Notes under the pieces: model-generated
The model's database searches: none
Seen by the model: the letters and a program-made list of their open reading frames with translations, nothing else
What the model was told of the DNA's origin: nothing
Made by a program: the position numbers and the translations under genes
Assembly (NCBI GenBank): GCA_947165595.1
Contig: CAMVAV010000008.1
Location: forward strand, 1-61,848
Source: an uncultured Clostridia bacterium
Lineage (GTDB): Bacteria; Bacillota; Clostridia; Oscillospirales; Oscillospiraceae
Direction of reading: 5' to 3'
DNA: 61,848 nucleotides
Shown here: positions 344 to 18,221 of the stretch, piece after piece
Layout of the letters: the number at the start of each line of letters is the position of its first letter
Numbering within the stretch: the stretch's first letter is position 1

Positions 344-373
344 GCATGCAAACGGGAAAAGAGAGTGAGAAAA

Positions 374-1573
374 ATGCTTGAAATCAAAGGAAAGGTCAAT
401 ACCGCGATTGCCTACGCGGCCATCATCGAAGACGAGGCCATCGAGCAAATTCGCAGGATGTGCGACTACGACTTCACGGAAGGTAGCCGCATCCGCATCA
501 TGCCCGACGTTCACGCGGGCAAGGGCTGCACCATCGGCACCACGATGACCGTGAACGGCAGGGCTGTACCCAATGTCGTCGGCGTGGACATCGGCTGCGG
601 CATGTACACTGTTGACCTCGGCGCGAGTGAGATCGACATGGAGCGGCTGGACGAAGCGGCGCATTTCATCCCCTCCGGCATGAAGGTATGGGAGGGCAGG
701 CAGGAGCGCTTCGACCTGACCGAGCTCAAATGCTACCGCGCACTCAAGGACGCAAGGCGTCTGGAGCGCAGCCTCGGAACCCTCGGCGGCGGCAATCATT
801 TCATCGAGGTGGATCGCGCGGCGGACGGCACGAACTACCTTGTGATCCACTCCGGTTCCCGCAACCTGGGCAAGCAGGTCGCCGAACACTACCAGCGCCT
901 CGCCATCGAGCTGCACGAGGGCAAGGAGGAGTATTACGCCAGGCGCGATCGGATCATTGCCGAGTACAAGGCGGCAGGCCGCCGCGGCGAAATCCAGGCG
1001 GCGCTGCAAGAGCTTGTCTGGAGCAGGAAGGAGCGCACGATCCCCGAAGATCTGTGCTACGTCTACGGCCGGCATCTCGAAGACTACCTCCACGACGTCG
1101 AAATCTGCCAGAGCTTCGCGCGCAGGAACCGTGAACTGATGGCGGAAATTCTTCTCAAAAAGACAGGGCTCGCGGCGCGTGACGCCTTCCATACCATCCA
1201 CAACTACATTGACACCGGGGAGATGATCCTGCGCAAGGGCGCGATCGCCGCACACGAGGGCGAGCGTGTCCTGATCCCGATCAATATGCGCGACGGCAGT
1301 GTGCTTGCGGTCGGCAAGGGCAATCCCGAATGGAATTTCTCCGCGCCTCACGGCGCGGGGAGGGTCATGTCCCGCACTGCGGCGCGCGAGGCGCTTGATC
1401 TGGAGGAGTACAAGCGTGAGATGGAGGGCGTCTACACCACCTCCGTCAGCGAGGAAACGCTGGACGAGGCGCCCATGGCCTACAAACGCCTGGAGGACAT
1501 TGTCGACGTGATCCGTGAGAGCGTGGACGTGATCGAAGTCCTCAAACCTATTTATAATTTCAAGGCTGGCTGA
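374..1573 (+). CDS. rtcB: RtcB-family RNA-splicing/repair ligase
   Basis: RtcB joins RNA 2',3'-cyclic phosphate (or 3'-phosphate) ends to 5'-OH ends using GTP and Mn2+, the chemistry needed to reseal broken tRNAs. The family signatures appear in order: DVHAGKGC near residue 47, GVDIGCGM near 73, GGGNHFIEV near 138, HSGSRNLG near 158 and APHGAGR, whose His326 corresponds to the guanylated nucleophile. The product is 399 aa, near full family length. ATG 374 is preferred over GTG 365 because GAGAG sits about 9 bases before it. The stop codon is part of a GC-rich hairpin (1571-1593). Accessory tRNAs follow within 200 bases, and an RlaP-type nucleotidyltransferase lies 12 kb on, which supports an RNA-repair role. 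The gene appears intact. Confidence 0.95.
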   Translation: MLEIKGKVNTAIAYAAIIEDEAIEQIRRMCDYDFTEGSRIRIMPDVHAGKGCTIGTTMTVNGRAVPNVVGVDIGCGMYTVDLGASEIDMERLDEAAHFIPSGMKVWEGRQERFDLTELKCYRALKDARRLERSLGTLGGGNHFIEVDRAADGTNYLVIHSGSRNLGKQVAEHYQRLAIELHEGKEEYYARRDRIIAEYKAAGRRGEIQAALQELVWSRKERTIPEDLCYVYGRHLEDYLHDVEICQSFARRNRELMAEILLKKTGLAARDAFHTIHNYIDTGEMILRKGAIAAHEGERVLIPINMRDGSVLAVGKGNPEWNFSAPHGAGRVMSRTAAREALDLEEYKREMEGVYTTSVSEETLDEAPMAYKRLEDIVDVIRESVDVIEVLKPIYNFKAG

Positions 1574-1617
1574 GCCGGGCTGTTCCGGCTCAGCGGCCGG
1601 AACAGGAGTTGATACCC

Positions 1618-1692
1618 ATGAATACCATACCGGCCATCGACATGGCCGCAACAGGAGCAAATATTGCCGCCATGCGGCAGCTCGCCGGCCTC
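1618..1692 (+). pseudogene. N-terminal stub of an XRE-type HTH regulator
   Basis: The frame starts at ATG 1618 behind a CAGGAG site. About 25 residues resemble the start of the HTH regulator at 16539-16183: both share IPAID or FPVID, then ATGxNI, then a GLS turn. After GLS the sequence becomes the 3' half of a tRNA. The recognition helix and the rest of the regulator are missing, so this is a gene stub fused to a tRNA remnant. Confidence 0.6.
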
Positions 1693-1734
1693 TCAAGCCG
1701 GAGATTGTGGGTTCAAGTCCCGCTGGCATCACCA
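1685..1734 (+). tRNA. 3' part of a class I tRNA, anticodon CTC (Glu), fused to an HTH stub
   Basis: An anticodon hairpin (CCGGC, loop CTCTCAA, GCCGG), a 5-base variable loop, a T arm (GTGGG, TTCAAGT, CCCGC), a 7-base acceptor strand, discriminator A and CCA are all present. The 5' side gives no D arm and no 7-bp acceptor partner. Instead the upstream DNA reads as an HTH N-terminus. This is therefore a tRNA 3' remnant, as produced at attachment sites or by deletion. The left anticodon strand belongs to the HTH codons, so the pairing may be partly accidental. Confidence 0.5.
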
Positions 1735-1737
1735 TAT

Positions 1738-1822
1738 GCACAGGCGGTGGAACTGGAATACACACCGGTCTCAGACACCGGGCCTTCGGGCACTGCGGGT
1801 TCGACTCCCGCCCTGTGTACCA
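1738..1822 (+). tRNA. tRNA-Leu(CAG)
   Basis: This is a class II tRNA. The acceptor GCACAGG pairs with CCTGTGT (one G-U). There is a D arm with GG in the loop, an anticodon stem CCGGT/ACCGG with loop CTCAGAC (U33 present, anticodon CAG), a long variable arm, T loop TTCGACT and an encoded CCA. It is the most canonical of the accessory tRNAs here. Confidence 0.93.
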
Positions 1823-1825
1823 TAC

Positions 1826-1910
1826 GGGCAGGTAGCGAATCGGCAAACGCGGCGGACCGTAAATCCGCTCCCTCACGGGGTAGTGGGCCCGACACCCACC
1901 CTGCCCACCA
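1826..1910 (+). tRNA. tRNA-Tyr(GTA) with C33 and an altered T loop
   Basis: The acceptor GGGCAGG pairs perfectly with CCTGCCC, followed by A and CCA. The variable arm is long, as expected for bacterial tRNA-Tyr. The anticodon loop is CCGTAAA, so position 33 is C rather than the near-invariant U. The T loop is CCCGACA, so the invariant T54-T55 are C-C. All stems are intact, so the changes are confined to conserved loop bases. It may be a specialised or damage-resistant tRNA, or a gene beginning to decay. Confidence 0.85.
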
Positions 1911-1912
1911 GA

Positions 1913-1957
1913 ACCCGGCGGGTACAGCACGCAAAGGCTGTATCCGCCGGGTTTTTT
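1913..1957 (+). terminator. Rho-independent terminator of the tRNA cluster
   Basis: The long stem pairs CCCGGCGG with CCGCCGGG, extended by a GTACAGC/GCTGTAT inner helix, and ends in six T. It is strong and directly follows the tRNA-Tyr CCA end. Confidence 0.88.
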
Positions 1958-2023
1958 GCCGGTGGAGCAGCTCGGAATTTTGCGTTTTGCTGAAGAGATC
2001 CGCTTATTTCGTTGTATTTTATC

Positions 2024-2311
2024 ATGACCCTGCGCTTTCATCCCCGCGGCGCTCCCGATATCCATTACAACTGCTTTACGCCGGGCAGCTCCGCGGGCAG
2101 CTGCGGCGGCGGTGAATACGCGAATGAGCTGCCGCGGGATTTCTACGTCGGATGCACGATGGAGAAGTTCGTGGAGCACTTCCCGGAGCGCCTGCACGAA
2201 CAGCTGACGGCGAACGATATGCTCCGCCGCTTTCTGGAGGCGGCGAATCGGCGGCACGCGCGGAAGCCGGACGCACCCGGGCCTGACACGGCCGAGGACG
2301 AACAGCTTTGA
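2024..2311 (+). CDS. hypothetical protein, 95 aa
   Basis: ATG 2024 opens a frame with good codon-position GC bias. The N-terminal part contains CFTPGSSAGSCGGG, a Gly/Ser/Cys-rich turn, followed by a helical stretch (FYVGCTMEKFVEHFPERLHE). It has no membrane segment and no known domain that I recognise. It lies between the tRNA terminator and a convergent terminator at 2421. It is probably an accessory small protein of the island. Confidence 0.45.
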   Translation: MTLRFHPRGAPDIHYNCFTPGSSAGSCGGGEYANELPRDFYVGCTMEKFVEHFPERLHEQLTANDMLRRFLEAANRRHARKPDAPGPDTAEDEQL

Positions 2312-2420
2312 GCTGCCTGCGGAGCCGGGAATTGCAAAAGTGAGGAAGCATGAGCCGCATGGGCAGAATATGATCGGGACAGCCTGATTGGATATGCGCC
2401 TGACATTATGAATTGAGACG

Positions 2421-2457
2421 AAGGCGGTTGTTCGGAAACCCGGAACAACCGCCTTCT
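2421..2457 (+). terminator. bidirectional terminator
   Basis: A stem of about 14 bp (AAGGCGGTTGTTC with GAACAACCGCCTT, 8-base loop) is flanked by CTTTACTT on the right. It sits between the convergent genes 2024-2311 (+) and 2521-3201 (-). Confidence 0.8.
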
Positions 2458-2520
2458 TTACTTGCACGAAAAACCGCGTTTGTCAAAGCAGAATTCGTCG
2501 CATGATCCATATCTGCCCCT

Positions 2521-3201
2521 CTACAGCGCGGGCATAACCCCGTACATATGATGAAGGATCAGACGGGCGGCGGCTTCGCGCCCAAAGAGCTTCGTCACCT
2601 GGTTGACCGCCGGCCCGCCTTCGGCAAACAGCCGCTGCGCAAAATCGCGCACCTTGCCCTGCTTTTCCTCCGCGTCGCACGGCTCGGCGGACTCCAGCCG
2701 GGAGAGAAACGCCAGCGCATATTCCCCGGCCGCTTCGGCCAGCCGCGCGGAGGCGCCGCGGCACGTTTTATGGAACGAGCAGGGGTAGAGGACGGCGTCG
2801 TACCAACGCGCATCTGCCGCCGCGTCAGGGATGTCCGCATAGCGCGACTTGATCCGCGCAAAGGCGTCCTGCGAGTCTTGCGGCCAGGGGGCGAGCTGCG
2901 TATCGTAGAGCTCCGCGATCACGGTCTCCCTGCCGGGTACGCGCACCCGATCCAGATTGAACAGCGGCACATCCCTGTGCGTACAGGACAGCACGACGGT
3001 CTCCATGCGCATGAGACCGAGCGGCGCCTTCATGCGCATGACGCAAAGGTGCCCGAGACCTTCGAGCACGTATGACTCGGTCTCAAAGGCCAGACCCCGC
3101 TTGGCAAGATGCGCGTCCGCGCCGATGTCTTCTTTGCGGAGCGCGCAGAAGCGCGAAAGCTCCGATTTTATTTGATTGATTATCTGCATAGTGTCAGCCA
3201 T
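2521..3201 (-). CDS. hypothetical cytosolic protein, 226 aa
   Basis: Start ATG 3201 is chosen because GGGGAGGTG lies 4-5 bases upstream. Longer in-frame starts have no ribosome site and run into the facing promoter region. The protein is soluble. Its middle part (RMETVVLSCTHRDVPLFNLDRV) alternates strands in a way loosely reminiscent of the bilin-reductase/chlorophyll-catabolite-reductase fold, where a short PIFG-like strand follows. This resemblance is by eye only and I assign no function. The C-terminus is helical. Confidence 0.7.
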   Translation of the reverse strand: MADTMQIINQIKSELSRFCALRKEDIGADAHLAKRGLAFETESYVLEGLGHLCVMRMKAPLGLMRMETVVLSCTHRDVPLFNLDRVRVPGRETVIAELYDTQLAPWPQDSQDAFARIKSRYADIPDAAADARWYDAVLYPCSFHKTCRGASARLAEAAGEYALAFLSRLESAEPCDAEEKQGKVRDFAQRLFAEGGPAVNQVTKLFGREAAARLILHHMYGVMPAL

Positions 3202-3327
3202 ATTGCACCTCCCCTGCGGCGAGCCGACAGCCGCTGAATGCTTGGCGCCGCCTCTGCCGTCCGGCTTTGTATCGATTCGGTTGGCATTAATTATAACACA
3301 GCCGCGGCAGAATTGCACGATGAATTG

Positions 3328-3380
3328 GAAAAGCGGTTGCCCCGGGCGCATGGCTGTGATAGAATCGTAACGGAAGAAAC
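3328..3380 (+). promoter_or_regulatory. promoter, copy 1 of a 53-bp repeat
   Basis: TTGCCC and TAGAAT are separated by 17 bases within a 53-bp stretch that recurs at 10856-10908 with one mismatch. This copy lies about 100 bases upstream of the P1 peptidase gene and presumably drives it. Confidence 0.6.
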
Positions 3381-3476
3381 AAAGGCGCGGCCGGAAAGGT
3401 CCAATGCGGCACAGGCATCCGTATCAAAAGCAGCCGGCCATAGCGGCAGAATATAGAAAGCGAGGCAGTAGTCCAT

Positions 3477-4460
3477 ATGAAAAGCATTCCGATCCAAGCC
3501 ATACAGAGCGTCAAGCTCGGCCAGACAGAGAACGCGGCGGCCGGAACCGGCTGCACGGTGCTGATTTGTGAAAAAGGGATGCGCGCGGGACTGGACGTGC
3601 GGGGCGGAGGCCCCGCGTCCAGAGAAACGCAGCTTTTGAACCCCTTGGCGGCGGCACAGGAGATCCACGCCATCGTTCTCGCCGGCGGCAGCGCCTTCGG
3701 CCTTGGCGCCGCGAGCGGCGTCATGGCGTGCCTGGAGGAGCGCGGCATCGGCTTTGACGTGGGCGTGACGAAGGTGCCGCTCGTCGTTCAGTCCGACCTT
3801 TTCGACCTGACGGTGGGCGATCCGTTCACAAGGCCGGACGCCGCGATGGGCTATGAAGCGGCAAATCGCGCGCTGGAAGCGCCGAACTATCGGGACGGAA
3901 ACTACGGCGCGGGCTGCGGAGCCACCGTGGGCAAGATAGCGGGCATGGCGACCTGCATGAAAACGGGCATCGGCAGCTATGCCGTCGAGCTTGGCGATCT
4001 GCAGGTCGGCGCGATCGTGGCGCTCAACGCCCTGGGCGATGTGTTTGACTGGAAGACCGGCAGGCAGGTCGCGGGGCTTTTGACGGAGGACAAGACGGCG
4101 CTTCGGAGCACGATGGAATGCATGCGCGCCTCCACGGACGTCGTGGAAAACAGGTTTACCGGCAATACGACGCTTGGCGTCGTGCTGACAAACGCCGCGT
4201 TTTCAAAGACGCAGCTGTGCAAGCTCGCGGGCATGGCGCACGACGGGTTTGCGCGCTCGATCCGCCCCGTGCATACGAGCGCCGACGGCGACAGCATTTA
4301 CGCGGTTTCCGTGGGGGACGTCCGCGCGGATCAGGACCTTGTGGGCGCGCTGGCGGCGGAGGTCATGAGCGAAGCGATCCTGCGCGCCGCGGAGTCTGCC
4401 GAGAGCGCGTACGGTTTTCCCGCCGCGTCGGACCTGAGGAAGCACAAGCACATGTCCTGA
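3477..4460 (+). CDS. P1-family (DmpA/S58-like) aminopeptidase
   Basis: This is an Ntn-hydrolase peptidase of the DmpA/BapA group, which trims N-terminal residues or beta-peptides after self-cleavage. The family hallmarks are GGSAFGL (a glycine-rich substrate loop near residue 70) and GNTTLGVV, where Thr231 would become the new N-terminal nucleophile after autoprocessing. The 327-aa length fits the family. There is no signal peptide, so it is cytosolic. ATG 3477 has a GAAAGCGAGG site. It is preceded by the duplicated promoter at 3328 and lies 50 bases before a GGDEF gene. The substrate is unknown. Confidence 0.9.
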   Translation: MKSIPIQAIQSVKLGQTENAAAGTGCTVLICEKGMRAGLDVRGGGPASRETQLLNPLAAAQEIHAIVLAGGSAFGLGAASGVMACLEERGIGFDVGVTKVPLVVQSDLFDLTVGDPFTRPDAAMGYEAANRALEAPNYRDGNYGAGCGATVGKIAGMATCMKTGIGSYAVELGDLQVGAIVALNALGDVFDWKTGRQVAGLLTEDKTALRSTMECMRASTDVVENRFTGNTTLGVVLTNAAFSKTQLCKLAGMAHDGFARSIRPVHTSADGDSIYAVSVGDVRADQDLVGALAAEVMSEAILRAAESAESAYGFPAASDLRKHKHMS

Positions 4461-4510
4461 TATGCTTCGGATATCTCCGCGGCGATCGACAAAAGGAGGA
4501 GGGATTCGCA

Positions 4511-5602: not shown

Positions 5603-5697
5603 ATCGCGATCGCCTGACGCTCCCCCAACGAGCCGCGCGCACCAATTCCTTATGCGTTGGGCGCTGTGAGCTCGCTCATACCGACGCGGAGCTTTCC

Positions 5698-5726
5698 TTG
5701 ACAGCGCCGGTCAGAGCCCTTATAAT
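5698..5726 (+). promoter_or_regulatory. perfect sigma-A promoter for the 1548-aa gene
   Basis: TTGACA, a 17-base spacer and TATAAT are an exact consensus match. The leader to the start codon is about 155 bases, longer than usual, and could hold a regulatory structure, although I see no clear terminator hairpin in it. Confidence 0.88.
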
Positions 5727-5889: not shown

Positions 5890-8800
5890 TTGGCGCCACC
5901 GAAGAAGAGCTATCAGGAGAACAACCCCGCCACGATTCAGAAAATGTCCAAGTTCAATAAAACCGTGCCGGATTCGGGCGGAAAAACAAGAAAGGTCACG
6001 TATTACCGTCCCACGCCGGGGACCGGCTATGACATCCTGACGGACGATGTTATGAACACCGGCAATCCGGAGGTCCTGCGCTCGTTCCGGGATGAGAACC
6101 GGGAGGCCCTTGAGGACGAGAAGAACGCCCCCGCGAAGCGGTACCTGGATTCCCGTATTCAGGTGGCTGAAAAGATCGAAGAAATGGAGCTTCGGGCGAA
6201 GGGACAGTCGGCGCTGGGCTACACGCCGCCGAAGCCGGAGGCGGACTTGAAGGACGGCTTCCTCGGCCTTTCAGAGATCAAATACCCAGACTATCAGACC
6301 AGCGCCAACGGCTGTTGGTCCATCTCCTATTCCATGCTTCTGAAGAGCCGAGGGGTGGACCTGTCCCAGGAGGAGATCCGCCAATGGCGTCCCAACTACC
6401 GGGCGAACACGCCGGAAAACGAAAAACCCAACCCGGAGCGCCTGCTCACCATGAACTCGGACCGGGGCAACTCCGTCTATCCCAACGCCGATCTGGCCGT
6501 GACGCTGCTGCCCAACACGGCGATGAACTCCCTGCGCATCGAGCCGTTCGAGAGCGGACAGCTCACTGTAGGCGGAGAGCCTCTGAACGCCGGGCAACTC
6601 CGGACCGTGCAGACGGAATACTATGCCCAGGTGAAAAAGACCCTGCAGGAAAACATCAGGGAGGCGCTGGTGAAGCACCGCTCACCGGTCTCCATCGCCT
6701 GGGACGGCCATTATGTGACCATTACCGGGATCAGCGAGGACGGAAACACCCTTCGCTACGAGGACTCCGTCGGCGGGGACCGGGACCTGCCCCGCACCAA
6801 GACCATGTCCCTGGACACGCTGGTTTTGCAGGGCATGCAGGCCCACGACCACAACGGAATGCACTATGACAGCGGCGGCGGCTTTGAAATGGCCTGGCTC
6901 AGCGATCTTCCGCAGGCGCAGTACGGCAGCGAGGAAAAGCCGGAGCTGAACCCCAGACATAAGGACTATGTGAAAATGGACGGTCAGGGGGAGATCGCCG
7001 TCAGCGTGCCCTACGACGCCAAGGGCGTATCCGCGGCGGGCAGCCCGGCGGAAGGCCAGGTGGACGGCAAGGCCGTGGAGGAGATGCTGGACCTGGACCA
7101 GAGCGCCCTGACGAAGAAGCTGGGGGTGTCCAAGGTGGAGGGCTGGAGCGCCTCCGGCGGCGTCATGATCGGAAACAAAGGGGTATATTACCCGAAAAAG
7201 GCCGTTCAGCTTGGCGACCCCGCCCTGGTGGAGGTCGGGCTGCGGACCCAGAAGCAGTCAATCGAAAATGTCCAAAGCGTGCTGTCCTGTTTGCTGAAAA
7301 ACAAGCCGGAACCAGAGGTCAAGGACAATCAGAAGGTTTTAGACATCTATAATACGCTGGAAACCCTCAAAACCGGCAAAAAGACCGACCCGAAGGCCAT
7401 TGCCGAGGGCAAAGAGAAGCTGCGGGAGACCTACGACTTTCTGCTGGAAACCGATGAGAACGGGAAGACGAATCTGGAAACGCTGACCTCCGACATGGAC
7501 GAAACCGTCCGCATAGGAATGGTTGACGGTCTGGCGGAGCTGGACCGGGTCTTCGGCCTGAGAAAGGAGCGGGAAGACCGGCGGCTGGGGGAGATCCACA
7601 ACGAGCTGGAGCGGAAAAAATCGTTTCTGGAGACCTATCGCCGCCGCGTCTCAGAGGTGCGGGACACATTCAGAAGGAACAGCGAAATCGAATTTTTGAA
7701 AGACCCCGCAGGCGGTATGCGGGCCTATGAGGAGCTGAGCGACGCGCAATATCTGGAAAGACGGATATGCGACCGCATGGCGGAGAGCTTCAAGCTTCTC
7801 ACGAAAGAGCAGCAGCTCTATCTCTACGAGAGCCTCTTTCCGACGGCACGCAAACAGCTTGTAACGGCGGACGGCTTTTTAGCGTACATCAAAGACACGG
7901 CACCGTATAACGGCGGCAGCTTCTTCGGCTCGATGATTTCATTTATGGGCGCCGGGAAAGTCGCCGAGGAGCTGGACAAGCTGCTCAGCAAAGAGGAAAA
8001 GAAGAAGCTTGCGAGGGACATCGACGCGATCGTCCCGCCCAGCAGCCCGGACTTCCCGAAGGAGCGGCTGAGCGTCTGCCCCGAACAGCCGCAGATCGAG
8101 GCGCTGCTCAAGGGCATTGCCCCCGACAGCCCGCGGGCGGAGGAAAAGAAGGATATTTTGCGCCGGGCGGGCAACGCGCTGCGCATCTCGTCCAACGAAG
8201 CGTCGTTCCATTATGACGCCAAGCGGTCGGGGTTCTCGAACACGAAGCTGGAAGGCCTGGAGAATGGGTACGACCACCTGTCGGATCAGATCTTCAAGGA
8301 TTATATTGACAACGATTACGGAGACAAGACGCTCAAGGACAAGCTTCCCAAAAACAAGGGCGGCGCCTATGAAGCCCCCGACATCAACCGGCAGCTCGGC
8401 CTCACGCCGGAGCAATTCCGGGCGATGCGCTCGGCGAAAAGCGGCATTTCGCCCGAGCTGCGGAAGCGGGTGACGGACATCTCGGCGGAGCTGGACGGCA
8501 TTGGCTGGGATGTACTCAAAAAGCACGACGGCATGGTGCGAAAAAGGGTCGCCCCCGACGGCAGCGTAAGCGACTATCTGCTATCCGAACAGGGCAACAA
8601 GCTTTACGCGTTCGGCGCCCTGCTCGTAGGGCACGACGAACTCCGCAAGGCGCTGGGAACGGGGGATCTCGAGAGCATTCGGGAAAAGACGGAGGAGTGT
8701 GAGCGCATCCGAAAGCACATGGACCGGATGATGGAGCTGGCGAAGGAGGCGGGTGATTTCCCCCTCGCGGGCGGCAACATCACGCCTACCCGCACCGAGG

Positions 8801-10536
8801 CCTCGGGCACGAACGAACTGCCTCCCGAGTACCTCAAGGAGTACAACAGCCTGAGCAAGGTCAACAGCATCCTGCAGCTGAACATCCTGTGCAAGAACAA
8901 CGGCGTGACTCCCAATGAGCTTTTGGACGACCCGGTCGGCAAGCTCACCGATATCGTCAAGCGGAAACTCCGGAAGTCCGGGCCGAACGCCCCCAAGACC
9001 TCGATCGGCAAGCTTGCCCTGGGCCTGTCGAATTCCGGCTGCATCAATATGAGCATGGATCTGACGATAGATACGTCCGCGCTGATGCACGCCACGGGAG
9101 GCATTGCGGGCATGGCGGCGAGCGAAGAGGAGCGCCGGAATATCATCGGTTCCTTCAACCTCGCGATCATCGCGGCGCGGCAGGCGGTGGCGCGCGAAAT
9201 GTCCGTCTGGAATAAGCTGAGCAGCTTGCCCGCGGATAAACAGAAAGCCCTCTATACGGCGGCATTCCTGATGCCGGAGAAAGAATTTGACGTCCTCAAG
9301 GCGGGGGAAGCCCTCGACAGCCCGGACTGGCAGAAAAAATTCGATCCGGCTTCCATGGCGGAAAATCTGCGCGACGCCGGCAAGCTGGATCTCAGCGAGA
9401 TGCTGCGGCGGCTGAAGGAGGCGGAGCAGGCCCTGAACGAGCAGCCGGAGCAGGGCAAATCGACCCAATTCAGCGCAGCGGAATACATGCGGGCGGCGAC
9501 AGATGCAAGCAAACTGGTGCTGCTCAACGCCCCCGAAGAACAGCGCCGGACGGAAGCCTGTCAACAGCTGGAGAAGCAGACCCGCAAGAGCATCGTTTCC
9601 ATGATAGATCGCGAGGAGAAGGACAGGCGCGCCGGGGCGCTCAAGGACGCGGAAAAGAACCTGTCGAAGGACGGCGTTGCCAAAGCCCTCGCCGACCAGG
9701 TGGCGGAGGAGAAGGGCGGCGCGGAGCCCACCCTTTCCGCCGGCGCATGGATCGAGAGCTACAAGGATGTGCTTCATAATGAGGAATTAGCGAACGACTT
9801 TAAGCAGATGGCGGACTATCCCGCGCTCTATGTCGCGCGCATCATGGCGGCGCGCGAGCTGTCAAACTCCACGCGCGGCAAGGCGTCCACGCTCAACAGG
9901 CAGCTCAAGGCGGAGGAGATCGACAAGCGCGCGGCGGAGCTGCTCGCCAACAAAAATTTCCGTTCCTTCGCTGACCTGACCAACCATGACAAAGCGACCG
10001 CGGACAAGGTGAAGGAGATATTCTCGAAGAAGCACAGCCACGGCGGCGAGCTGGACGATATGTTCCGCAGCTATCTCCGGACGCTCCCGGCGGGCGAGCT
10101 GCGCAACGACGCCGAGCTCAGGCGCTGGATGCCCACGGTCAAAGAGCGCGTCGAGTCGCTGCAGGAGCAGGCGCAAAAGTCGCTCAAGGCCGGCCGCGAG
10201 GTCTACCGCGAGGCGGCGGAGATCGTGTTGCTGCGCACCATGGCAGGCGTCAAGCGCGGCGGAGAGGGCCTGGATAAGCAGATCCCCGTCAGGGACGGGA
10301 ACAAGGACATTCCGAGCGTGAGCAAACAAGTCGTGATGAACGCCGACGCGCGGGAGGTCAGGGAAGCTTTTGACAAGGCCAACGGCGCGAAGTACATCTG
10401 CAGCGGCCACGGCGGCAAAATGATCGAGAACATCGCGAAAGCGTCGGTCGGGCCCGCCAATCTCAAGCCCGAAGCGGATGTGCCGGTGAAAACCAAAACC
10501 GCCGGGGATCCGGAGCGCGGGCCGATGCCGGAATGA
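5890..10536 (+). CDS. giant protein with N-terminal papain/C39-like protease domain, 1548 aa
   Basis: TTG 5890 follows ACAGGAGGAGAG and a consensus promoter. The N-terminal 120 residues are polar and lysine-rich. A papain/C39-like fold then spans about 125-330: QTSANGC gives Gln136 (oxyanion hole) and Cys142, GHYVTITGI gives His274, and RYEDSVGG gives Asp292, in correct order and spacing. The remaining 1200 residues are charged and mostly helical, with coiled-coil-like runs and no recognised domain. There is no signal peptide, transmembrane helix or sorting motif, so it acts in the cytosol or leaves by a non-classical route. I cannot name the family. A large effector, toxin or self-processing protein are all possible. 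Confidence 0.9.
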   Translation: MAPPKKSYQENNPATIQKMSKFNKTVPDSGGKTRKVTYYRPTPGTGYDILTDDVMNTGNPEVLRSFRDENREALEDEKNAPAKRYLDSRIQVAEKIEEMELRAKGQSALGYTPPKPEADLKDGFLGLSEIKYPDYQTSANGCWSISYSMLLKSRGVDLSQEEIRQWRPNYRANTPENEKPNPERLLTMNSDRGNSVYPNADLAVTLLPNTAMNSLRIEPFESGQLTVGGEPLNAGQLRTVQTEYYAQVKKTLQENIREALVKHRSPVSIAWDGHYVTITGISEDGNTLRYEDSVGGDRDLPRTKTMSLDTLVLQGMQAHDHNGMHYDSGGGFEMAWLSDLPQAQYGSEEKPELNPRHKDYVKMDGQGEIAVSVPYDAKGVSAAGSPAEGQVDGKAVEEMLDLDQSALTKKLGVSKVEGWSASGGVMIGNKGVYYPKKAVQLGDPALVEVGLRTQKQSIENVQSVLSCLLKNKPEPEVKDNQKVLDIYNTLETLKTGKKTDPKAIAEGKEKLRETYDFLLETDENGKTNLETLTSDMDETVRIGMVDGLAELDRVFGLRKEREDRRLGEIHNELERKKSFLETYRRRVSEVRDTFRRNSEIEFLKDPAGGMRAYEELSDAQYLERRICDRMAESFKLLTKEQQLYLYESLFPTARKQLVTADGFLAYIKDTAPYNGGSFFGSMISFMGAGKVAEELDKLLSKEEKKKLARDIDAIVPPSSPDFPKERLSVCPEQPQIEALLKGIAPDSPRAEEKKDILRRAGNALRISSNEASFHYDAKRSGFSNTKLEGLENGYDHLSDQIFKDYIDNDYGDKTLKDKLPKNKGGAYEAPDINRQLGLTPEQFRAMRSAKSGISPELRKRVTDISAELDGIGWDVLKKHDGMVRKRVAPDGSVSDYLLSEQGNKLYAFGALLVGHDELRKALGTGDLESIREKTEECERIRKHMDRMMELAKEAGDFPLAGGNITPTRTEASGTNELPPEYLKEYNSLSKVNSILQLNILCKNNGVTPNELLDDPVGKLTDIVKRKLRKSGPNAPKTSIGKLALGLSNSGCINMSMDLTIDTSALMHATGGIAGMAASEEERRNIIGSFNLAIIAARQAVAREMSVWNKLSSLPADKQKALYTAAFLMPEKEFDVLKAGEALDSPDWQKKFDPASMAENLRDAGKLDLSEMLRRLKEAEQALNEQPEQGKSTQFSAAEYMRAATDASKLVLLNAPEEQRRTEACQQLEKQTRKSIVSMIDREEKDRRAGALKDAEKNLSKDGVAKALADQVAEEKGGAEPTLSAGAWIESYKDVLHNEELANDFKQMADYPALYVARIMAARELSNSTRGKASTLNRQLKAEEIDKRAAELLANKNFRSFADLTNHDKATADKVKEIFSKKHSHGGELDDMFRSYLRTLPAGELRNDAELRRWMPTVKERVESLQEQAQKSLKAGREVYREAAEIVLLRTMAGVKRGGEGLDKQIPVRDGNKDIPSVSKQVVMNADAREVREAFDKANGAKYICSGHGGKMIENIAKASVGPANLKPEADVPVKTKTAGDPERGPMPE

Positions 10537-11677: not shown

Positions 11678-11693
11678 AAGGCAAGGGAGCGCT

Positions 11694-12632: not shown

Positions 12633-12647
12633 GGAGGCAATGATTTT

Positions 12648-13034
12648 ATGGGACGGCTGAAAGAAGCGCTCAAGGACGGCGACGCGGTGATCACGTCGGC
12701 GTTTCACCTGACGAACGCAAAGGCAATCATTCATGCGGTGGGGCCGAACTTCGCAGTGACCCCAAAAGCGTTCAAGGAGCTCTTTGACGCCTATTACAAT
12801 TCGCTGACAGTGCTGATGGAGAATGGCTATCACAGCATTGCGTTTCCGCTTATCAGCTCAGGCATATTCGGCGGTTCTCTTGCCGATCCCGCCGGCGAAT
12901 CCGCGAAGCAGTGCCTTCGCGCCTACAGGAAGTTTGTCGCCGATCACCCGGATTACGATGTGGATGTGACACTGTGCGCGTTCGGCGCCTCGGAGATGGC
13001 TTCAGCCGAAAGAGCGTTTGAAGAGACCCTGTGA
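12648..13034 (+). CDS. N-terminally truncated macro-domain protein
   Basis: The product is 128 aa. Residues 12-35 (GDAVITSAFHLTNAKAIIHA then VGPNF) and 60-75 (SIAFPLISSGIFGG) match macro domains, which bind or hydrolyse ADP-ribose. The first third of the fold, including the VNAAN loop that holds ADP-ribose, is missing. A GAGGAGG site precedes ATG 12648, so it can be translated, but catalytic function is doubtful. It ends near 13034 with a macro-like C-terminal helix. It is most likely a deletion derivative. Confidence 0.7.
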   Translation: MGRLKEALKDGDAVITSAFHLTNAKAIIHAVGPNFAVTPKAFKELFDAYYNSLTVLMENGYHSIAFPLISSGIFGGSLADPAGESAKQCLRAYRKFVADHPDYDVDVTLCAFGASEMASAERAFEETL

Positions 13035-13432: not shown

Positions 13433-13461
13433 TTGACAGATAGTATACGCTATGTTATTAT
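13433..13461 (+). promoter_or_regulatory. sigma-A promoter with palindromic spacer
   Basis: TTGACA, a 17-base spacer and TATTAT. The spacer contains ATAG-TATACG-CTAT, an inverted repeat of the type bound by XRE-family repressors of mobile elements. Downstream is a short untranslated or small-peptide transcript ending at the 13744 terminator. Confidence 0.75.
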
Positions 13462-13517
13462 CATGGCGAAATACGGAGCGACAATACCATTGCGCCCCAG
13501 AAAGGAAGACAACGGAA

Positions 13518-13670
13518 ATGCTGCTGAAGCAAATGTGGTCAGTGTCGAATATAGCCGCCGGAACGTGCTCTGATATTCCGCAGAGCCGTCACTTTAGCGC
13601 GCCCATGACGCGCATGGCCGGAACTGAATCAGTCTGCAAATCCGATGTTTTCGGGGCTTTACCAGCATAG
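13518..13670 (+). CDS. candidate 50-aa peptide or part of a small RNA
   Basis: ATG 13518 follows AAAGGAAG and gives a 50-codon frame with unremarkable composition and no known motif. It lies entirely inside a transcript bounded by the promoter at 13433 and the terminator at 13700-13744, about 275 nt long. The RNA itself may be the product. The evidence for translation is only the ribosome site. Confidence 0.3.
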   Translation: MLLKQMWSVSNIAAGTCSDIPQSRHFSAPMTRMAGTESVCKSDVFGALPA

Positions 13671-13699
13671 ACGCAGGTAAAAGTGCATAGGACTGTTTG

Positions 13700-13744
13700 G
13701 ACCCGGCCATGGCAGCGTAAGGCTCGTTGGCTGGGTTCTTTTTA
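13700..13744 (+). terminator. Rho-independent terminator
   Basis: ACCCGGCCA pairs with TGGCTGGGT (one G-U) across an 18-base loop and is followed by TCTTTTT. It ends the short transcript started at 13433. Confidence 0.72.
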
Positions 13745-13837
13745 TGCGCAAAATGGAATATGGCGGCAAGAGTGCATCGAAAAAGAAGAGATCGATGGGC
13801 TTAGAAAACTATACTATCTGTAATCATAAACGAATGT

Positions 13838-13924
13838 GGGGATGCGGTAATGGTATCCGGCCCGCCTGCTGCGCGGGTGACATCGAAAAGGTATTTGAGG
13901 GTTCGAGCCCCCGATGTCCCACCA
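13838..13924 (+). tRNA. defective tRNA-like remnant ending in CCA
   Basis: A CCA end, a T loop TTCGAGC and an anticodon-like hairpin (CCCGC, CTGCTGC, GCGGG) are visible. The 5' strand GGGGATG pairs with only four bases of the 3' acceptor, and the T stem has two mismatches. An alternative partner for the 3' end lies inside the element: GACATCG near 13880 pairs exactly with CGATGTC near 13915. This suggests an acceptor plus T arm left after loss of the D and anticodon arms. It is not expected to be functional. Confidence 0.35.
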
Positions 13925-13928
13925 ACAC

Positions 13929-14016
13929 GCAGCGATGGCCGAGCGGCTGATGGCGCCGGTCCTGAAAACCGGAGGCCCGAAAGGGTCCACGGGTTCAAAT
14001 CCTGTTCGCTGCGCCA
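13929..14016 (+). tRNA. tRNA-Ser(TGA) with C33
   Basis: This is a complete class II tRNA: acceptor GCAGCGA/TCGCTGC, discriminator G, CCA, a D arm with GCC/GGC, a long variable arm (GGCCC-GAAA-GGGTC) and T loop TTCAAAT. The anticodon stem CCGGT/ACCGG encloses CCTGAAA, so the anticodon is TGA but position 33 is C instead of U. This is the same substitution seen in the tRNA-Tyr of this island. Confidence 0.9.
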
Positions 14017-14055
14017 TTAATACCATGCGAAAAGCAGAAGGAGATGAGGAAATAT

Positions 14056-15066
14056 ATGGATATCAATGAAGTGCTCAAACGTCCCGAATATGGCTTTTTG
14101 GAGGATGAAGTGTTCAAGACGCATCCGATCATGTTCCTCACGTTCGGCGGATCGATCGCTTACGGCACGAATACGCCCGCATCCGATATCGACATCCGCG
14201 GATGCGCGCTTGCCTCAAAATCGGATCTTCTCGGCATGACCGGCTTTGACCACTTTCTGGATGAGGCAACGGACACAACGGTATACGCATCCAGGACGCT
14301 GATCAAGCTCCTCGCAGCCTGCAACCCGAACATCATTGAGATGCTCGGCTGTAAGGAGGATACCTACACAAGCGTGTCGCCGGCAGGGAAGCTCCTGCTG
14401 GAGAACAAGAAGCTGTTTCTGTCGCAACGGGCAATCGACTCGTTCGGCGGCTACGCATATCAGCAGTTCAACCGCCTTCAGAACGCGGTCGCGCATGATC
14501 GGCTTTCCCAAAACGAGCAGGAGGAGCACCTGCTTCATGCCTGTGAGCGTGCCATAGACCATATGAACGGCACGTACACGGAGCTGCCCGGGGGGAGCAT
14601 CCGGCTGTATACGGACAAATCCGAAAAGACCGGCAGAGATCTCGAAATCTTCGCGGACATCTCACTGAAGCACTATCCGCTGCGTGATTTTTCCGGGATT
14701 TACAACGAATTGCAGACATTGACGCGCAGCTTTGCCAAGCTGAACAATCGGAACAAGAAGAAGGATCTCCCGCATCTCGCCAAGCACATGATGCACCTCA
14801 TGCGGCTCTACCTGATGCTCGACGACATCCTCGCAAAGCAGGAGATCGTGACCTGTCGGGAGAAGGAGCACGGCTTCCTCATGGATATCCGAAACGGAAA
14901 GTACATGACCGGGGACGGCCTTGTTCGGCAGGAATTCTACGACATGCTGGAGGCCCAGAAGGCCAAATGCGATGAGGACGCGAAAAACACAGAGCTCCCC
15001 CTGGCGCCGGACGCGGGAAAGCTGAATGAACTGTCCATGAGCATTCATGAGCTTGCATTGGGGTAA
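14056..15066 (+). CDS. RlaP/YcgL-type nucleotidyltransferase (RNA-repair pathway DNA-polymerase-beta family)
   Basis: The nucleotidyltransferase core is clear: GGSIAYGTNTPASDIDIRG at residues 31-49, with GS in the nucleotide-binding loop and D44/D46 as metal ligands. The rest (to 336 aa) is the long helical C-terminal part typical of the RlaP/COG3541 group. Published comparative genomics places this family with RNA ligases in RNA-repair loci. It could add nucleotides to damaged RNA ends before or during ligation. ATG 14056 is chosen over 14044 because GGAGATGAGG gives it correct spacing. It lies 40 bases after tRNA-Ser and 100 bases before its partner gene. Confidence 0.88.
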   Translation: MDINEVLKRPEYGFLEDEVFKTHPIMFLTFGGSIAYGTNTPASDIDIRGCALASKSDLLGMTGFDHFLDEATDTTVYASRTLIKLLAACNPNIIEMLGCKEDTYTSVSPAGKLLLENKKLFLSQRAIDSFGGYAYQQFNRLQNAVAHDRLSQNEQEEHLLHACERAIDHMNGTYTELPGGSIRLYTDKSEKTGRDLEIFADISLKHYPLRDFSGIYNELQTLTRSFAKLNNRNKKKDLPHLAKHMMHLMRLYLMLDDILAKQEIVTCREKEHGFLMDIRNGKYMTGDGLVRQEFYDMLEAQKAKCDEDAKNTELPLAPDAGKLNELSMSIHELALG

Positions 15067-15165
15067 TTATGGATGAGAACGCCTGGGCAAGCTTTGAACC
15101 GGCGGTTCCATGACAAAGCCACAAAAATCAAGTACAATGAGATCGAAACAACGATCAGGGAGGCA

Positions 15166-15807
15166 ATGAAAATGAATCTGAAAGAAGCATTCCGGTTCCA
15201 GAACAAGCTGAACAGCCTGCTGGAGCAGGCGGAGAACGTGCTGGAGCGCGACTCCAACGTGGTGAAGGTGGAGAACACCTATCTGCGCAAGAAGGTCATG
15301 CCCGAGGCGGAGAACGAGACTGTCATCGAAGCCCCGGCGACGGACTATGCCGAGAAGATCACCGAGCTGGCAGGGTTCACTATGTTCCTGCTCGGCGAGA
15401 AGGAGAAGCTCTTTCGCGCGGTCCGTCAGGCGAAGAACGGTCTTGGGATCGACATCGACGGCGAGACCAGCCTGAACGGCGCGCGTCAGGCCGCGATGCG
15501 CATTTTCAAGCGCATGGCGGATCTGCGCAGCTCCGAGGTCACGATCGCAAACGGCGGCGTCGGCTATCGGTTCAACACCGACGGCAATCAGGTGTCCTAC
15601 AAGTGCGACGTCCGGCGCGTCACCACGATCAACTTCGACCGCAACGTGATCCGCAGGTTCGCCAGGGACCTGAGCGGCCGCGCGGACGAGCTTTCTTCGG
15701 AGATCGACAAGGCCATCGTCAATACGGAGGTCGCCTACGACGTGCCGTTCGACGTCAACGCGAGCTTCGCGGACGCCTTTGAATCCTTCTGCGAAAGCGC
15801 GGAGTAA
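15166..15807 (+). CDS. conserved-looking helical protein, 213 aa, partner of the nucleotidyltransferase
   Basis: ATG 15166 follows GGGAGG at 5 bases. The protein is soluble. Its N-terminal half is helical (LKEAFRFQNKLNSLLEQAEN), then a loop with conserved-looking polar residues, then a second helical pair with VSYKCDVRRVTTINFDRN as a central beta hairpin. I do not recognise a named domain. Its place 100 bases behind the RlaP-type gene, on the same strand, suggests shared function or an adaptor role. The gene looks intact. Confidence 0.75.
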   Translation: MKMNLKEAFRFQNKLNSLLEQAENVLERDSNVVKVENTYLRKKVMPEAENETVIEAPATDYAEKITELAGFTMFLLGEKEKLFRAVRQAKNGLGIDIDGETSLNGARQAAMRIFKRMADLRSSEVTIANGGVGYRFNTDGNQVSYKCDVRRVTTINFDRNVIRRFARDLSGRADELSSEIDKAIVNTEVAYDVPFDVNASFADAFESFCESAE

Positions 15808-16182
15808 CGGAACAACAGCCTCAACCGGCTGTTTCAGGTACGACAGGACCAGAATGCGCGGATGCCGGTTCAGATGCAGATGAACTATAAAGCTGCATAT
15901 AGCTTTTCTATCAATGGGCTGGACCGGTGCCCTGACCGGTCTTCATGGAAATGCACATCCGGAGCCAAGAACCGAATCCCGCAGCAGACGATCGACCAAC
16001 GTCATTTCATCAAAATCGCCTGACGCTCTCTTCTCCCCAAACGAACTTACATCTCCCTGTACATGACGGATGAAATCCGTCGACATCCGGTAACGATGTC
16101 ACGCGACTTGAGGTCGCGGCTACTGATCAAATCCATCCGCGTCGCGGCTCGAATGCCGGAAGCCTTTCGGGGCAGCTGTGCT
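15808..16182 (+). other. 375-base gap without a clear gene
   Basis: One frame stays open from 15808 to about 16023 and reads like degraded coding (LNRLFQVRQDQNARMPVQMQ), but it has no start or ribosome site. A small inverted repeat (GACCGGTGCCCTGACCGGTC) lies near 15923. I see no RNA gene or promoter. Confidence 0.4.
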
Positions 16183-16539
16183 TCAGGCAGCGGCAAGGAA
16201 AAATGGCTGATGTGCGTTCGAAACCCTGTCGTATCTGAAAGAGCCGGTTAAAAGCGCTGAGCGGCAGGACTCAGCCTGCCGCTCAGAAGAAACAATATTC
16301 AAATGAGGTTCAGCCGGTACCAGAATCTCGTCCAGCGAGACTTGAAGGATCGCGCCGAGGGCAAACAGGTTGTCGACCGACGGGAGCGTCTGTCCGCGCT
16401 GCCACTTGTAGATGGCGCGGGGCTCCTCAAAGCCGAAGTAGTCCTGCAGGTCCCGGACGCTCAGGCCGCGCTCGCTGCGCAGCCGCACGATGTTCTTCCC
16501 CGTCGCGACCGGATCGATCACGGGAAAGCGCATGCTCAT
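16183..16539 (-). CDS. XRE-family HTH regulator
   Basis: ATG 16539 follows a GGGGAGGG site. Residues 10-70 form a lambda-repressor-like HTH: ATGKNIVRLRSERGLSVRDL, then WQRGQTLPSVDNL and the SLDEIL tail usual for the family. It is 118 aa. The C-terminal 45 residues are read through a strong hairpin (16257-16285) and look non-conserved, so the original stop may have been lost. It is the intact relative of the stub at 1618. It could repress the promoters of the mobile remnant. Confidence 0.85.
   Translation of the reverse strand: MSMRFPVIDPVATGKNIVRLRSERGLSVRDLQDYFGFEEPRAIYKWQRGQTLPSVDNLFALGAILQVSLDEILVPAEPHLNIVSSERQAESCRSALLTGSFRYDRVSNAHQPFFLAAA
16257..16285 (-). terminator. terminator-like hairpin inside the HTH 3' end
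   Basis: A perfect 12-bp stem (CTGAGCGGCAGG/CCTGCCGCTCAG, 6-base loop) is followed on the minus strand by GCGCTTTT. It fits a minus-strand terminator although the reading frame continues 75 bases beyond it. Confidence 0.6.
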
Positions 16540-16665
16540 GGGTATCCCTCCCCTTGAGTAGTCTCTGCCGCAGCAGGCTCCTACACCATAGCGCCTTCGG
16601 ACGCCGGAGTCAAGGGAAGCGGGGGATTTGTAACAGAAATGAAAAGTGATGGGAGGTTCGGCACA

Positions 16666-16860
16666 ATGCAGACGTTTATTCCTCTGGAGAAGAGAAGCAA
16701 GAAGGAACAGCGGGCATACCACGCGAAGCAGCGCGGAACCTGGCACGGGTTCTGCCCCGTGACGCGCATCGCGCGCAGCGGAAAAGCGTATGACAGGAAC
16801 CGGGAAAAGCGGACTGCCCGTGCTGCGGTAAAGGAAGAAGCCGAAGGAAAGACATGTTGA
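16666..16860 (+). CDS. small basic protein, 64 aa
   Basis: ATG 16666 follows GGGAGG. The product is rich in Lys/Arg (FIPLEKRSKKEQRAYHAKQR at the start, and an RNREKR run later) and contains GFCPVTRI. Such short basic proteins are frequent in Clostridia mobile elements and may bind nucleic acid. The function is unknown. It lies 27 bases before the AAA gene stub and may share its transcript. Confidence 0.6.
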   Translation: MQTFIPLEKRSKKEQRAYHAKQRGTWHGFCPVTRIARSGKAYDRNREKRTARAAVKEEAEGKTC

Positions 16861-16887
16861 GTACAGAATACTCATGGAGGAAACTAT

Positions 16888-17247
16888 TTGAATCTTGCCA
16901 TATCAGTTGATCAGAAGCAGCTCAAGGACGTGCTGCTGAACGTCGCTCCCGTGCGCCCGGTGTTCATCTGGGGCGCGCCCGGTATCGGCAAATCCGCCAT
17001 TGTCGAGGAATTTGCGGAGGAGGTCGGGCTCGAATGCGTGTCCCTCCTCGGCAGCCAGCTCGCGCCGGAGGACATCATCGGCGTGCCGCAGATCGTGGAC
17101 GGCCGCAGTACATCTTATCCGCAGTCATGCACGCCGACGAGCGCAACCGTGCCATGTCGGAGCAGTTGGGCGAGGACGTGTACCACTACCACCTCCTCGT
17201 CCGGGAGGATAACAGAACCAGCCGGCAAAGGTAAGAGGTTATCTTGA
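16888..17247 (+). pseudogene. N-terminal fragment of a MoxR-like AAA+ ATPase
   Basis: TTG 16888 with GGAGG upstream opens an AAA+ domain: VFIWGAPGIGKSAIVEEF (Walker A, near residues 27-44) and LLGSQLAPEDIIGVPQIVDG. Right after this strand the plausible sequence stops, and the Walker B, sensor and arginine-finger regions are absent. The downstream bases read in another frame as a plasmid mobilisation protein. The full MoxR-type protein would be about 350 aa or more. Confidence 0.75.
17103..17234 (+). pseudogene. fragment of a Mob/Pre-type plasmid recombination (relaxase) protein
   Basis: In the frame next to the AAA fragment the bases read YILSAVMHADERNRAM, then DVYHYHL. The paired histidines after a hydrophobic Y resemble the metal-binding HxH motif of Mob/Pre relaxases found on gut plasmids and integrative elements. 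No start codon or remaining domain is present. The recognition is by motif only. Confidence 0.45.
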
Positions 17248-17727
17248 TTTAAAATCATTTGTTTCCATCACATTTTCCTTATACACAATGAACCGCGGCC
17301 CTTCTTCGCCCGTGATTCCCATGGGGCGAAAGCCGCATTTCATCAACACTCTCCGGGACGCCGCGTTATCGGGCGCCGTTTCCGCCTCGACCGCGTGGAT
17401 ATTCGGATGCCGAAACGCCCAAGCAAGCGCAAGCCTCACCGCCTCGGTCGCATAGCCCTTGCCTTGATGCTCCTCCAGAATGCCATAGCCGATTTCGGGA
17501 TTTTTGCCCGGTTCCAGACCCTTGAAGCAAAGGTCGCCGAGCTGCGTCCCGTCGTTTGCTTCGATTCTCCACATCGCATACCAGTCCCAGCGGTCAGGAT
17601 GCGCAAGGCAGCCGTCCAGCATCTCTCTGTACGCCTTCCTCAGCTCCTCGCTCTTCTCCTCGGCGATCACACGCTCCATCTGTTCCCTGCTCGCGGGGCG
17701 AATCCCGACCCGGCCTGTTTCCGTCAT
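17239..17727 (-). CDS. GNAT N-acetyltransferase (RimJ-like)
   Basis: The product is 162 aa with the acetyl-CoA loop ILEEHQGKGYATEA near residue 88 (the Q/R-x-x-G-x-A type) and the C-terminal NAASRRVLMKCGF helix-strand usual for RimJ-like GNATs. It should acetylate an amino group of a protein or small molecule in the cytosol. ATG 17727 follows GGAAAGGG. It faces the AAA fragment and overlaps its last nine bases. It looks intact. Confidence 0.9.
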   Translation of the reverse strand: MTETGRVGIRPASREQMERVIAEEKSEELRKAYREMLDGCLAHPDRWDWYAMWRIEANDGTQLGDLCFKGLEPGKNPEIGYGILEEHQGKGYATEAVRLALAWAFRHPNIHAVEAETAPDNAASRRVLMKCGFRPMGITGEEGPRFIVYKENVMETNDFKSR

Positions 17728-17814
17728 GGCAAACCCTTTCCCTTTCCGACTCAGCGCTTTCTCTTCACCGGCGCCCGGATCGCGCTGTGATAATCCGGCT
17801 CCGTACAGCCCCTT

Positions 17815-17892
17815 CACGCCAAAGAAATAGCAGCTGCCCGGCCCGCGCTCGTCAAAGCTGCCATGCTGCCCCAGGTCAAAGGTATTATGGCT
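17815..17892 (-). pseudogene. short decayed coding fragment
   Basis: On the minus strand one frame reads FDLGQHGSFDERGPGSCYFF, which looks like real protein (a conserved-type Gly/Asp/Cys loop), but it has no start and runs into unrelated sequence before the acetyltransferase. I do not recognise the parent family. Confidence 0.25.
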
Positions 17893-17970
17893 TGGAATAC
17901 CTCTCCTGTCAAGCGCAAACGGGTCGAGTCCCGCCCTTCATCTCCGCGACGATGCTCTCCAGCGCGCCGC

Positions 17971-18087
17971 GCCCTCTCGGAGGCGGATATCCCGTTCGAC
18001 CGCAGGAGGTTTTCGCCGTACGTCACACTGCTGCGCAAAGCGGCATTTGACCGGATGCCCGGCGTCTCCGTTCCGGAAGCGCCTGCC
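17971..18087 (+). pseudogene. fragment of a LigT/ThpR-type RNA 2',3'-cyclic phosphodiesterase
   Basis: The frame reads DIPFDRRRFSPYVTLLRKA and then PEAPA. This resembles the second half of LigT/ThpR enzymes, where F-x-P-H-x-T-L carries a catalytic His. Here that His is Tyr. No start or first HxTx motif is present. The fragment is consistent with a lost RNA-repair gene in this island, but the match is short. Confidence 0.4.
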
Positions 18088-18221
18088 CGGCGGTTAGCGA
18101 AGTCTAACGAACAGGCCGGCCGAGGGGGCGGGCCTATGTCCTTCCAATATGGATTCCTCAAGCCGCCCGATGTCTTTGGCTCAATGACGATGGCGCGGAG
18201 GCGGAGACGGCGCAGAATGCA

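Follow-up and report, generated by a model that had tools for sequence, protein, structure and literature searches.

What holds an RtcB RNA ligase, an RlaP-type nucleotidyltransferase and a few extra tRNA genes together in a bacterial genome, and what would switch them on? The question is raised by contig CAMVAV010000008.1 (assembly GCA_947165595.1) of an uncultured Clostridia bacterium of the Oscillospiraceae. Its 61,848 nucleotides (nt) are the window of this study, contig C8 of a 2.83-Mb, 78%-complete metagenome-assembled genome (MAG). A sequence-only reading had described an RNA-repair island; our analysis leads to a decayed kit instead. With good probability this is a spare-tRNA kit, in which divergent tRNAs are accompanied by RtcB in a first operon and by RlaP in a second one, under ribosome-mediated transcription attenuation. 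It is also likely, though we hold this a little less firmly, that such kits are mobile and sense their own state. The leader would be a multi-amino-acid detector for loss of exactly the tRNAs of its own operon, only the missing part would be switched on, and tandem modules, as on plasmid pRUMAL01, would split the amino acids among independent sensors.

Leaders and operons of the window

Both operons, read on the forward strand, open with a predicted promoter, a Shine-Dalgarno sequence, a leader open reading frame (ORF) and a hairpin followed by a T-run. They were compared with Oscillospiraceae bacterium SIG513, a MAG of the same genus whose island lies on contig C7. The predicted promoter of leader 1 (TAGACA-17-TATCCT, 73-101; TAGACA-17-TATAGT in SIG513) precedes leader ORF 1 (146-280), a Glu/Gly/Leu/Tyr-rich frame of 44 amino acids (aa; 45 codons with the stop), and a terminator-like hairpin (309-343) with an interrupted U-run (TTTCT, TTTTT in SIG513). 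Behind it stand RtcB (365-1573, ATG 374 also being possible), the cut-off start of a small XRE regulator gene (1618-1682, by eye against SIG513), the 3' part of a tRNA-Glu (1683-1734), tRNA-Leu(CAG) (1738-1822) and tRNA-Tyr(GTA) (1826-1910), closed by a terminator-like hairpin with a T-run (1913-1957, by eye). The second operon starts with the predicted promoter TTGACA-17-TATTAT (13433-13461), leader ORF 2 (13518-13670; 50 aa, 51 codons with the stop) and a predicted terminator (13700-13743; equilibrium folding), followed by tRNA-Ser(GCT) (13831-13924), tRNA-Ser(TGA) (13929-14016) and the RlaP-family nucleotidyltransferase gene (14044-15066). Since RlaP starts 27 nt after a tRNA-Ser, it probably belongs to the same operon under leader 2. 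Both leader ORFs keep frame and length in SIG513, which carries one further copy of leader 1 and two of leader 2. What an attenuator calls for ahead of its genes is present in the sequence, namely a leader ORF with a ribosome-binding site and a predicted intrinsic terminator between leader and genes.

A putative operator, TATACTACAGGTTTA (58-72), abuts the -35 box of leader 1 and matches its motif at 15/15 positions, likewise in SIG513 and in module 3 of Ruminococcus albus; leader 2 reaches 9/15. At least 11/15 positions agree in 19/25 leaders compared with 26/500 control stretches, for a motif drawn by eye from some of the scored leaders. The operator-like site at the -35 box and the XRE gene together suggest a second control, at the level of initiation. 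The operator-like sequence TATACYACRRGTTTA (58-72 of the window, locus L186 and many leaders) also resembles the TrcR site of Anabaena, ATACTACACTTGTATTAC; TrcR is of another fold family.

Both enzyme genes are real and open. RtcB is an open frame that matches PF01139 (E-value = 4.5e-58; two stretches, 197.9 bits) and phrog_1075 (residues 3-402, 426 bits), and RlaP matches phrog_388 and PF10127 (E-value = 4.2e-15; residues 25-146 on model positions 16-141 of 249, 56.5 bits with a cut-off of 23). This RtcB is the only one found in the 78%-complete MAG. None was found in SIG513, so RtcB is not a housekeeping gene of the genus. The clusters of accessory tRNAs fared less well: ARAGORN calls five tRNAs (Glu, Leu and Tyr at 1666-1910, two Ser at 13831-14016), of which three (starting at 1666, 1738 and 13929) reach the Rfam score, tRNA-Tyr and tRNA-Ser(GCT) staying under the gathering score. 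Moreover, the tRNA-Glu call (1666-1734) is a chimera of the XRE gene start (ATG 1618) and a tRNA-Glu 3' half. Four of the five calls could be compared with host isoacceptors, drawn from 28 other tRNAs of the MAG (four places lie outside this set) and 44 of SIG513, and show 59-77% identity. The island tRNAs of SIG513 show 60-84% identity to the host tRNA with the same anticodon (28 of 34 comparable). Escape through the anticodon loop was set aside: the 7-nt loop differs in 16/28 island tRNAs with a host isoacceptor and is the same in 12, which is suggestive only.

The high number and density of tRNAs that define a tRNA array unit are not seen in the window. On C7 of SIG513, 21 tRNAs were called in 2.0 kb plus two more, and 33 of the 76 tRNA matches of that genome fall on C7 (43 elsewhere). 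One stretch of C7 is fuller than the window, with a macro gene, tRNAs, a partner gene, an XRE gene on the minus strand and a MoxR-like gene. Further along come a leader, an XRE gene and Glu-Gly-Glu-Lys-Lys-Leu-Leu-Tyr tRNAs, and some 40 kb away a leader, tRNA-Ser, RlaP (86% identity), XRE, Glu and Tyr. Concerning the window, the fused XRE start and tRNA-Glu half, the loss of most of both arrays, a macro-domain gene without its N-terminal part (12648-13034, forward strand; 175 aa in SIG513) and a MoxR-like gene whose homology to SIG513 ends at 17108 are signs of decay. The island thus appears to be the remains of a larger kit, either decayed or collapsed by assembly. The truncated macro-domain gene had been missed by the sequence-only reading, as had the leader-peptide attenuators, the strongest evidence on mode of action.

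Leader peptides and the arrays behind them

Similar leaders stand ahead of tRNA arrays in Clostridia, on a plasmid of R. albus and on virus-labelled contigs, often together with a small XRE gene and in some cases with RtcB. Searches started from the small XRE protein encoded with the SIG513 array and from an alignment of seven proteins of this type. At E <= 1e-20 a match was found in 52/400 genomes of the family, the partner-linked XRE type included. Among 30 returned loci, 12 of the 19 best-scoring hold tRNAs within the locus (<=3.3 kb), and in the remaining 11 there are three with a single tRNA, a lone tRNA-Pro. In the class scan 6/391 genomes matched at E <= 1e-24, including that of the window and one already known. 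Three matches fall in one other family; two of these three have arrays, one with a leader that satisfies the rules and one with a leader recognised by eye. The XRE protein alone was dropped as a marker, with 183/197 genomes of the order matching at E <= 0.001. Plasmid pRUMAL01 of R. albus 7 carries three modules in tandem, and several array loci are contigs labelled viral or phage. As phrog_2, chosen as a terminase marker, proved uninformative (it matched in 11/14 control genomes, the record of virus contig L095 and pRUMAL01), we make no statement on whether the virus-labelled contigs are phages.

Modules were delimited by fixed rules that ignore composition: an ORF of 25-60 codons with a Shine-Dalgarno sequence, ending at most 110 nt upstream of a hairpin of -14 kcal/mol or better with a T-run, and tRNAs downstream. 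This yields 21 modules in 18/23 loci, none in L049, L193, L241, L187 and L243. L011-2, L186-2, L206-1 and the leaders of the window itself are absent from the rule set. L207, L185/L194 and loci that only duplicate part of a longer one were omitted as redundant. Six modules were added by eye (L011-2, L186-2, L206-1 and the class-level L257-1, L257-2 and L259-1), the last three after the hypothesis had been formed.

The leader residues follow the tRNAs of their own array. Across the 21 modules the mean share of leader residues for which the own array has a tRNA (the own-array share) is 0.363 compared with 0.267 in permuted pairings (z = 6.9; p = 2e-5, the lowest value that 50,000 permutations can give), and in the 17 non-redundant modules 0.379 compared with 0.275. 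All array amino acids (95/95) are present in the own leader, with a permuted coverage of 0.888; with the six additions, the 27 modules give z = 8.4 and 131/132. Taking one module per single-linkage leader cluster (11) leaves z = 5.8 (4.9-5.8 in 20 random draws of representatives), while the five wrong frames show no matching (z from -1.9 to 1.4). All 17 testable amino acids are commoner in leaders whose array carries them (17 modules). The six added modules rank 1, 1, 1, 3, 5 and 11 of 18, the three post-hypothesis ones 1, 3 and 5. Cognate regulatory codons are therefore found at the level of amino acids; at the level of isoacceptors the fit is not clear.

Specifically, on pRUMAL01 a leader with ...DDYQCFFSFSFDWQ... 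precedes tRNAs for Asp, Gln, Cys, Phe, Gln and Trp, and another with ...FSYSYSYSS... precedes Tyr and four Ser. Elsewhere ...NKQFNNKQFMQFCKNQKCF... stands before Gln, Cys, Phe, Lys, Lys, Gln and Asn, and ...ISNRIKSIRSQFCNKNWFNC... before Phe, Ile, Lys, Lys, Trp, Gln, Cys, Asn and Arg. The 37-aa leader of L038 has six Gln codons (all CAG), four Phe and three Tyr, and its array holds Gln(CTG), Phe and Tyr. In the homologous trio L195, L253 and L250, the member without tRNA-Cys is also without Cys codons.

Complementarity links the 3' part of the ORF to the terminator's 5' arm (nominal Fisher p = 1.1e-6, 24 leaders against dinucleotide shuffles), with paired segments that vary by module, such as CATTTCAAGATAAGCA with CGCTTGTCTTGAAGT in L250 and TATCAAGATAAGCA with CGCTTGTCTTGAT in L253. 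Folding was also computed for RNA that ends short of the 3' arm. Here the 5' arm pairs upstream at 0.74 if the ribosome is in mid-ORF, at 0.24 if it has reached the stop and at 0.52 for a shuffled leader, in the same direction in 24/24 leaders (nominal p = 6e-8). Full-length equilibrium folding gives a clear ribosome-dependent switch in 5/24 leaders and a partial one in three; being mostly negative, it was discarded as proof of switching. Leader 2 of the window is among the clear cases, its terminator forming only once the ribosome is past about 60% of the ORF. Since equilibrium folding mostly shows no switching, kinetic folding must be assumed for the other leaders.

RtcB recurs in these modules. 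In 7/18 genome regions examined, a gene 78-83% identical to that of the window lies no more than about 60 nt ahead of the XRE gene (an eighth region keeps a short remnant there), and one of 75-76% is in the same place in 2/9 virus- or phage-labelled loci listed; tRNAs were called downstream in 4/7 and 1/2 of these, respectively. Leaders were found before 6 of these 9 array-type RtcB genes. As a specificity control, the 600 nt upstream of RtcB and RlaP at other loci were searched with thresholds slightly looser than those of the module rules, which gave a leader before 1/34 RtcBs (L043). RtcB as the anchor of the system was dropped, a tRNA being present in the fetched stretch of only 5/32 RtcB loci from the order. 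RlaP is rare (10/400 family genomes with the window protein as query, 6/197 order genomes by Pfam family); a tRNA array is near it in 3/9 bacterial loci inspected, and a position under a leader was seen only in the window and SIG513. In Clostridioides phage AR1086-1 and the phage-like plasmid pCd18_2, genes for KptA, RtcB and an RlaP-type nucleotidyltransferase (41%) lie no more than 20 kb apart.

Mode of action and competing explanations

Under attenuation, the leader peptide, which holds amino acids served by the tRNAs of its own operon, would be translated during transcription. With these tRNAs plentiful, the ribosome would reach the 3' end of the leader and cover the antiterminator strand, and the terminator would form. 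Were they cut or depleted, as might happen when defence systems, phages or rival bacteria deploy anticodon nucleases, the ribosome would stall early, the 3' part of the leader would pair with the 5' arm of the terminator, and transcription could read through into RtcB, XRE and tRNAs, or into tRNAs and RlaP. Replacement tRNAs would then be made along with RtcB or RlaP, which may act on the damage. Starvation or antibiotics would stall the leaders as well; we take cleavage by anticodon nucleases as the likeliest cause of tRNA loss because RtcB, RlaP and a macro gene are present, for which jumbo phages offer a precedent (PMC7824862). The earlier suggestion that the island repairs or replaces broken tRNAs fits as far as a response to tRNA loss goes, with cleavage as its presumed trigger.

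Several observations weigh against this account. It is built on sequence, and the copy in the window has either decayed or been collapsed in assembly. The rule thresholds were set after some leaders had been seen, and 5/23 loci came out empty. In 8/21 modules, mostly those with short arrays, the own-array share does not exceed the average obtained when the leader is paired with other arrays; the leader of L011-2 lacks Trp despite a tRNA-Trp in its array (rank 11 of 18), and the choice of Ser (AGY/TCN) and Leu (TTR/CTN) codons shows no clear fit to the isoacceptors. Complementarity tests on single leaders are mostly weak, the pooled p-values for complementarity and partial folding are nominal because some leaders are homologous, and at equilibrium the terminator wins in most leaders at any ribosome position. 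L244, L246 and L248 have a leader and an XRE gene, with RtcB in L244 and L248, and no tRNA was found in them; they may be RtcB-only or emptied modules. No leader was found before 3/9 array-type RtcB genes (one has only 647 nt of contig upstream), nor in the 600 nt before RlaP in any of 12 other loci, and in L251 and L257 RtcB stands ahead of the leader, not behind it.

The best-surviving alternative, which we regard as unlikely, is that the leaders are general sensors of translation stress: any ribosome slowed by an antibiotic or by amino-acid starvation would induce the operon, and leader composition would only tune its basal level. In Anabaena, antibiotics that target the ribosome do induce, by way of the repressor TrcR, both rtcB and a 26-tRNA trn operon located on a megaplasmid (PMC10272220), many leader residues lie outside the own array, and most terminators are indifferent to ribosome position at equilibrium. 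It leaves unexplained, however, why a leader tracks the array of its own operon and not those of others (z 5.8-8.4), and why adjacent modules on one plasmid have differing leaders. Far less probable is an old codon supply, with array and leader derived from a phage of biased codon use and the ORF being an ordinary small protein. RtcB and RlaP fit phage profiles well, the viral and phage labels of several array loci agree with it, and no such leader is visible by eye in one phage-like array (L041, also virus contig L095), to which the rules were not applied; yet leaders recur with predicted promoter, hairpin and potential antiterminator pairing, and the matching is specific to module and frame. 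The earlier version, a constitutive repair island of RtcB, RlaP, partner and tRNAs, is just as improbable, for although the genes are there and co-occur in part, terminator-like hairpins lie between promoter and genes in both operons and the partner is found elsewhere without the rest.

If leader-controlled spare-tRNA kits are confirmed, they bear on the purpose of the extra tRNA sets seen in phages, plasmids and bacteria: a sensor spelled in codons of the supplied tRNAs implies that the set answers the loss of those tRNAs and does not serve codon supply. The anti-nuclease hypothesis would become directly testable in a named isolate, R. albus 7, such kits could be searched for and the tRNAs under attack predicted, and RtcB, together with RlaP in this window, would sit downstream of a tRNA-loss alarm.

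Neighbouring genes and known systems

Concerning the 213-aa helical partner said to follow RlaP, the gene is present (15166-15807, ORF from 15073), and its family mostly travels with another gene. No confident family was found for it: the best Pfam match, BID (E-value = 0.0008), is under the cut-off, and NCBIfam and PHROGs gave none. In 15 named Clostridia loci with the partner (L011-L025), an XRE relative lies within 0.6 kb in 10, and in the stretches examined no RtcB, RlaP or tRNA was found nearby except the tRNAs of SIG513. A role as RNA-repair protein was thus unsupported by neighbourhoods and by the profile scans. In the window the partner is convergent with an XRE regulator on the minus strand (16183-16875), followed by the 5' part of a MoxR-type AAA ATPase gene on the plus strand (16888-17108) weakly like bpMoxR of MoxR-vWA ternary systems; the partner-XRE pair is probably a separate conflict system. 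A check of co-occurrence did not support RtcB, RlaP, partner and tRNAs as one set. By pairs, RtcB before the array-module XRE and RlaP beside tRNA-Ser in SIG513 do hold, with the partner found elsewhere. Nor was the announced LigT/ThpR-like fragment recovered: among six ORFs at 17.4-19.7 kb, the frames covered by this test, Pfam gave one MarR and five without a match. The ORF at 17239-17817 is a GNAT.

Further observations lie apart from these genes. A 1548-aa ORF (5890-10536) has only a weak N-terminal match to C39 peptidase and no PADLOC hit, and 33846-35187 contains repeated segments, each about 210-225 nt long, that all match a single stretch on C7 of SIG513 (L049, 1830-2054). In locus L155 (about 1317-2245; G036:C11), hairpin-bearing stretches of about 55 bp lie inside three tRNA genes of one array (Lys, Gly and Tyr; by eye) at different positions; the near relative L185 has a tRNA-Lys without the stretch, for which an inserted element or a removable intron are candidates.

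Attenuation and tRNA arrays are each already known separately. Among the papers listed by searches of open full texts, subscription papers and preprints lying outside their scope, none joined leader peptides to tRNA arrays. As in the trp and his attenuators (PMC1183508), there is a leader ORF with cognate regulatory codons, a predicted terminator and a putative alternative antiterminator helix. Unlike them, the output would be tRNAs and RNA repair instead of biosynthesis, a leader serves 2 to 13 array amino acids at once, and tandem modules divide the amino acids. The Anabaena trn/TrcR regulon (PMC10272220) is likewise a silent megaplasmid tRNA array induced by translation stress, with rtcB under the same control and a TrcR site similar to the operator-like site. 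It relies on a ribbon-helix-helix repressor acting at initiation, whereas here an XRE gene and an attenuator are found. The module regulator is of the HTH_3/XRE type, the rest of the genome not having been searched for TrcR, and the words 'leader' and 'attenuation' are absent from the text of PMC10272220. In mycobacteria, phages and plasmids, tRNA array units (PMC5966550; PMC12803027) share dense, mobile and divergent extra tRNAs and a proposed antidefence role, but the words RtcB, ligase, nucleotidyltransferase and repair do not appear in either text. Finally, the RNA repair kits of jumbo phages (PMC7824862) also combine tRNAs, RtcB, RlaP, macro and KptA and were proposed to counter tRNA-cutting defence, while the kits described here occur also in bacterial genomes and on a plasmid, in attenuator-led operons, as predicted, many of them with an XRE gene.

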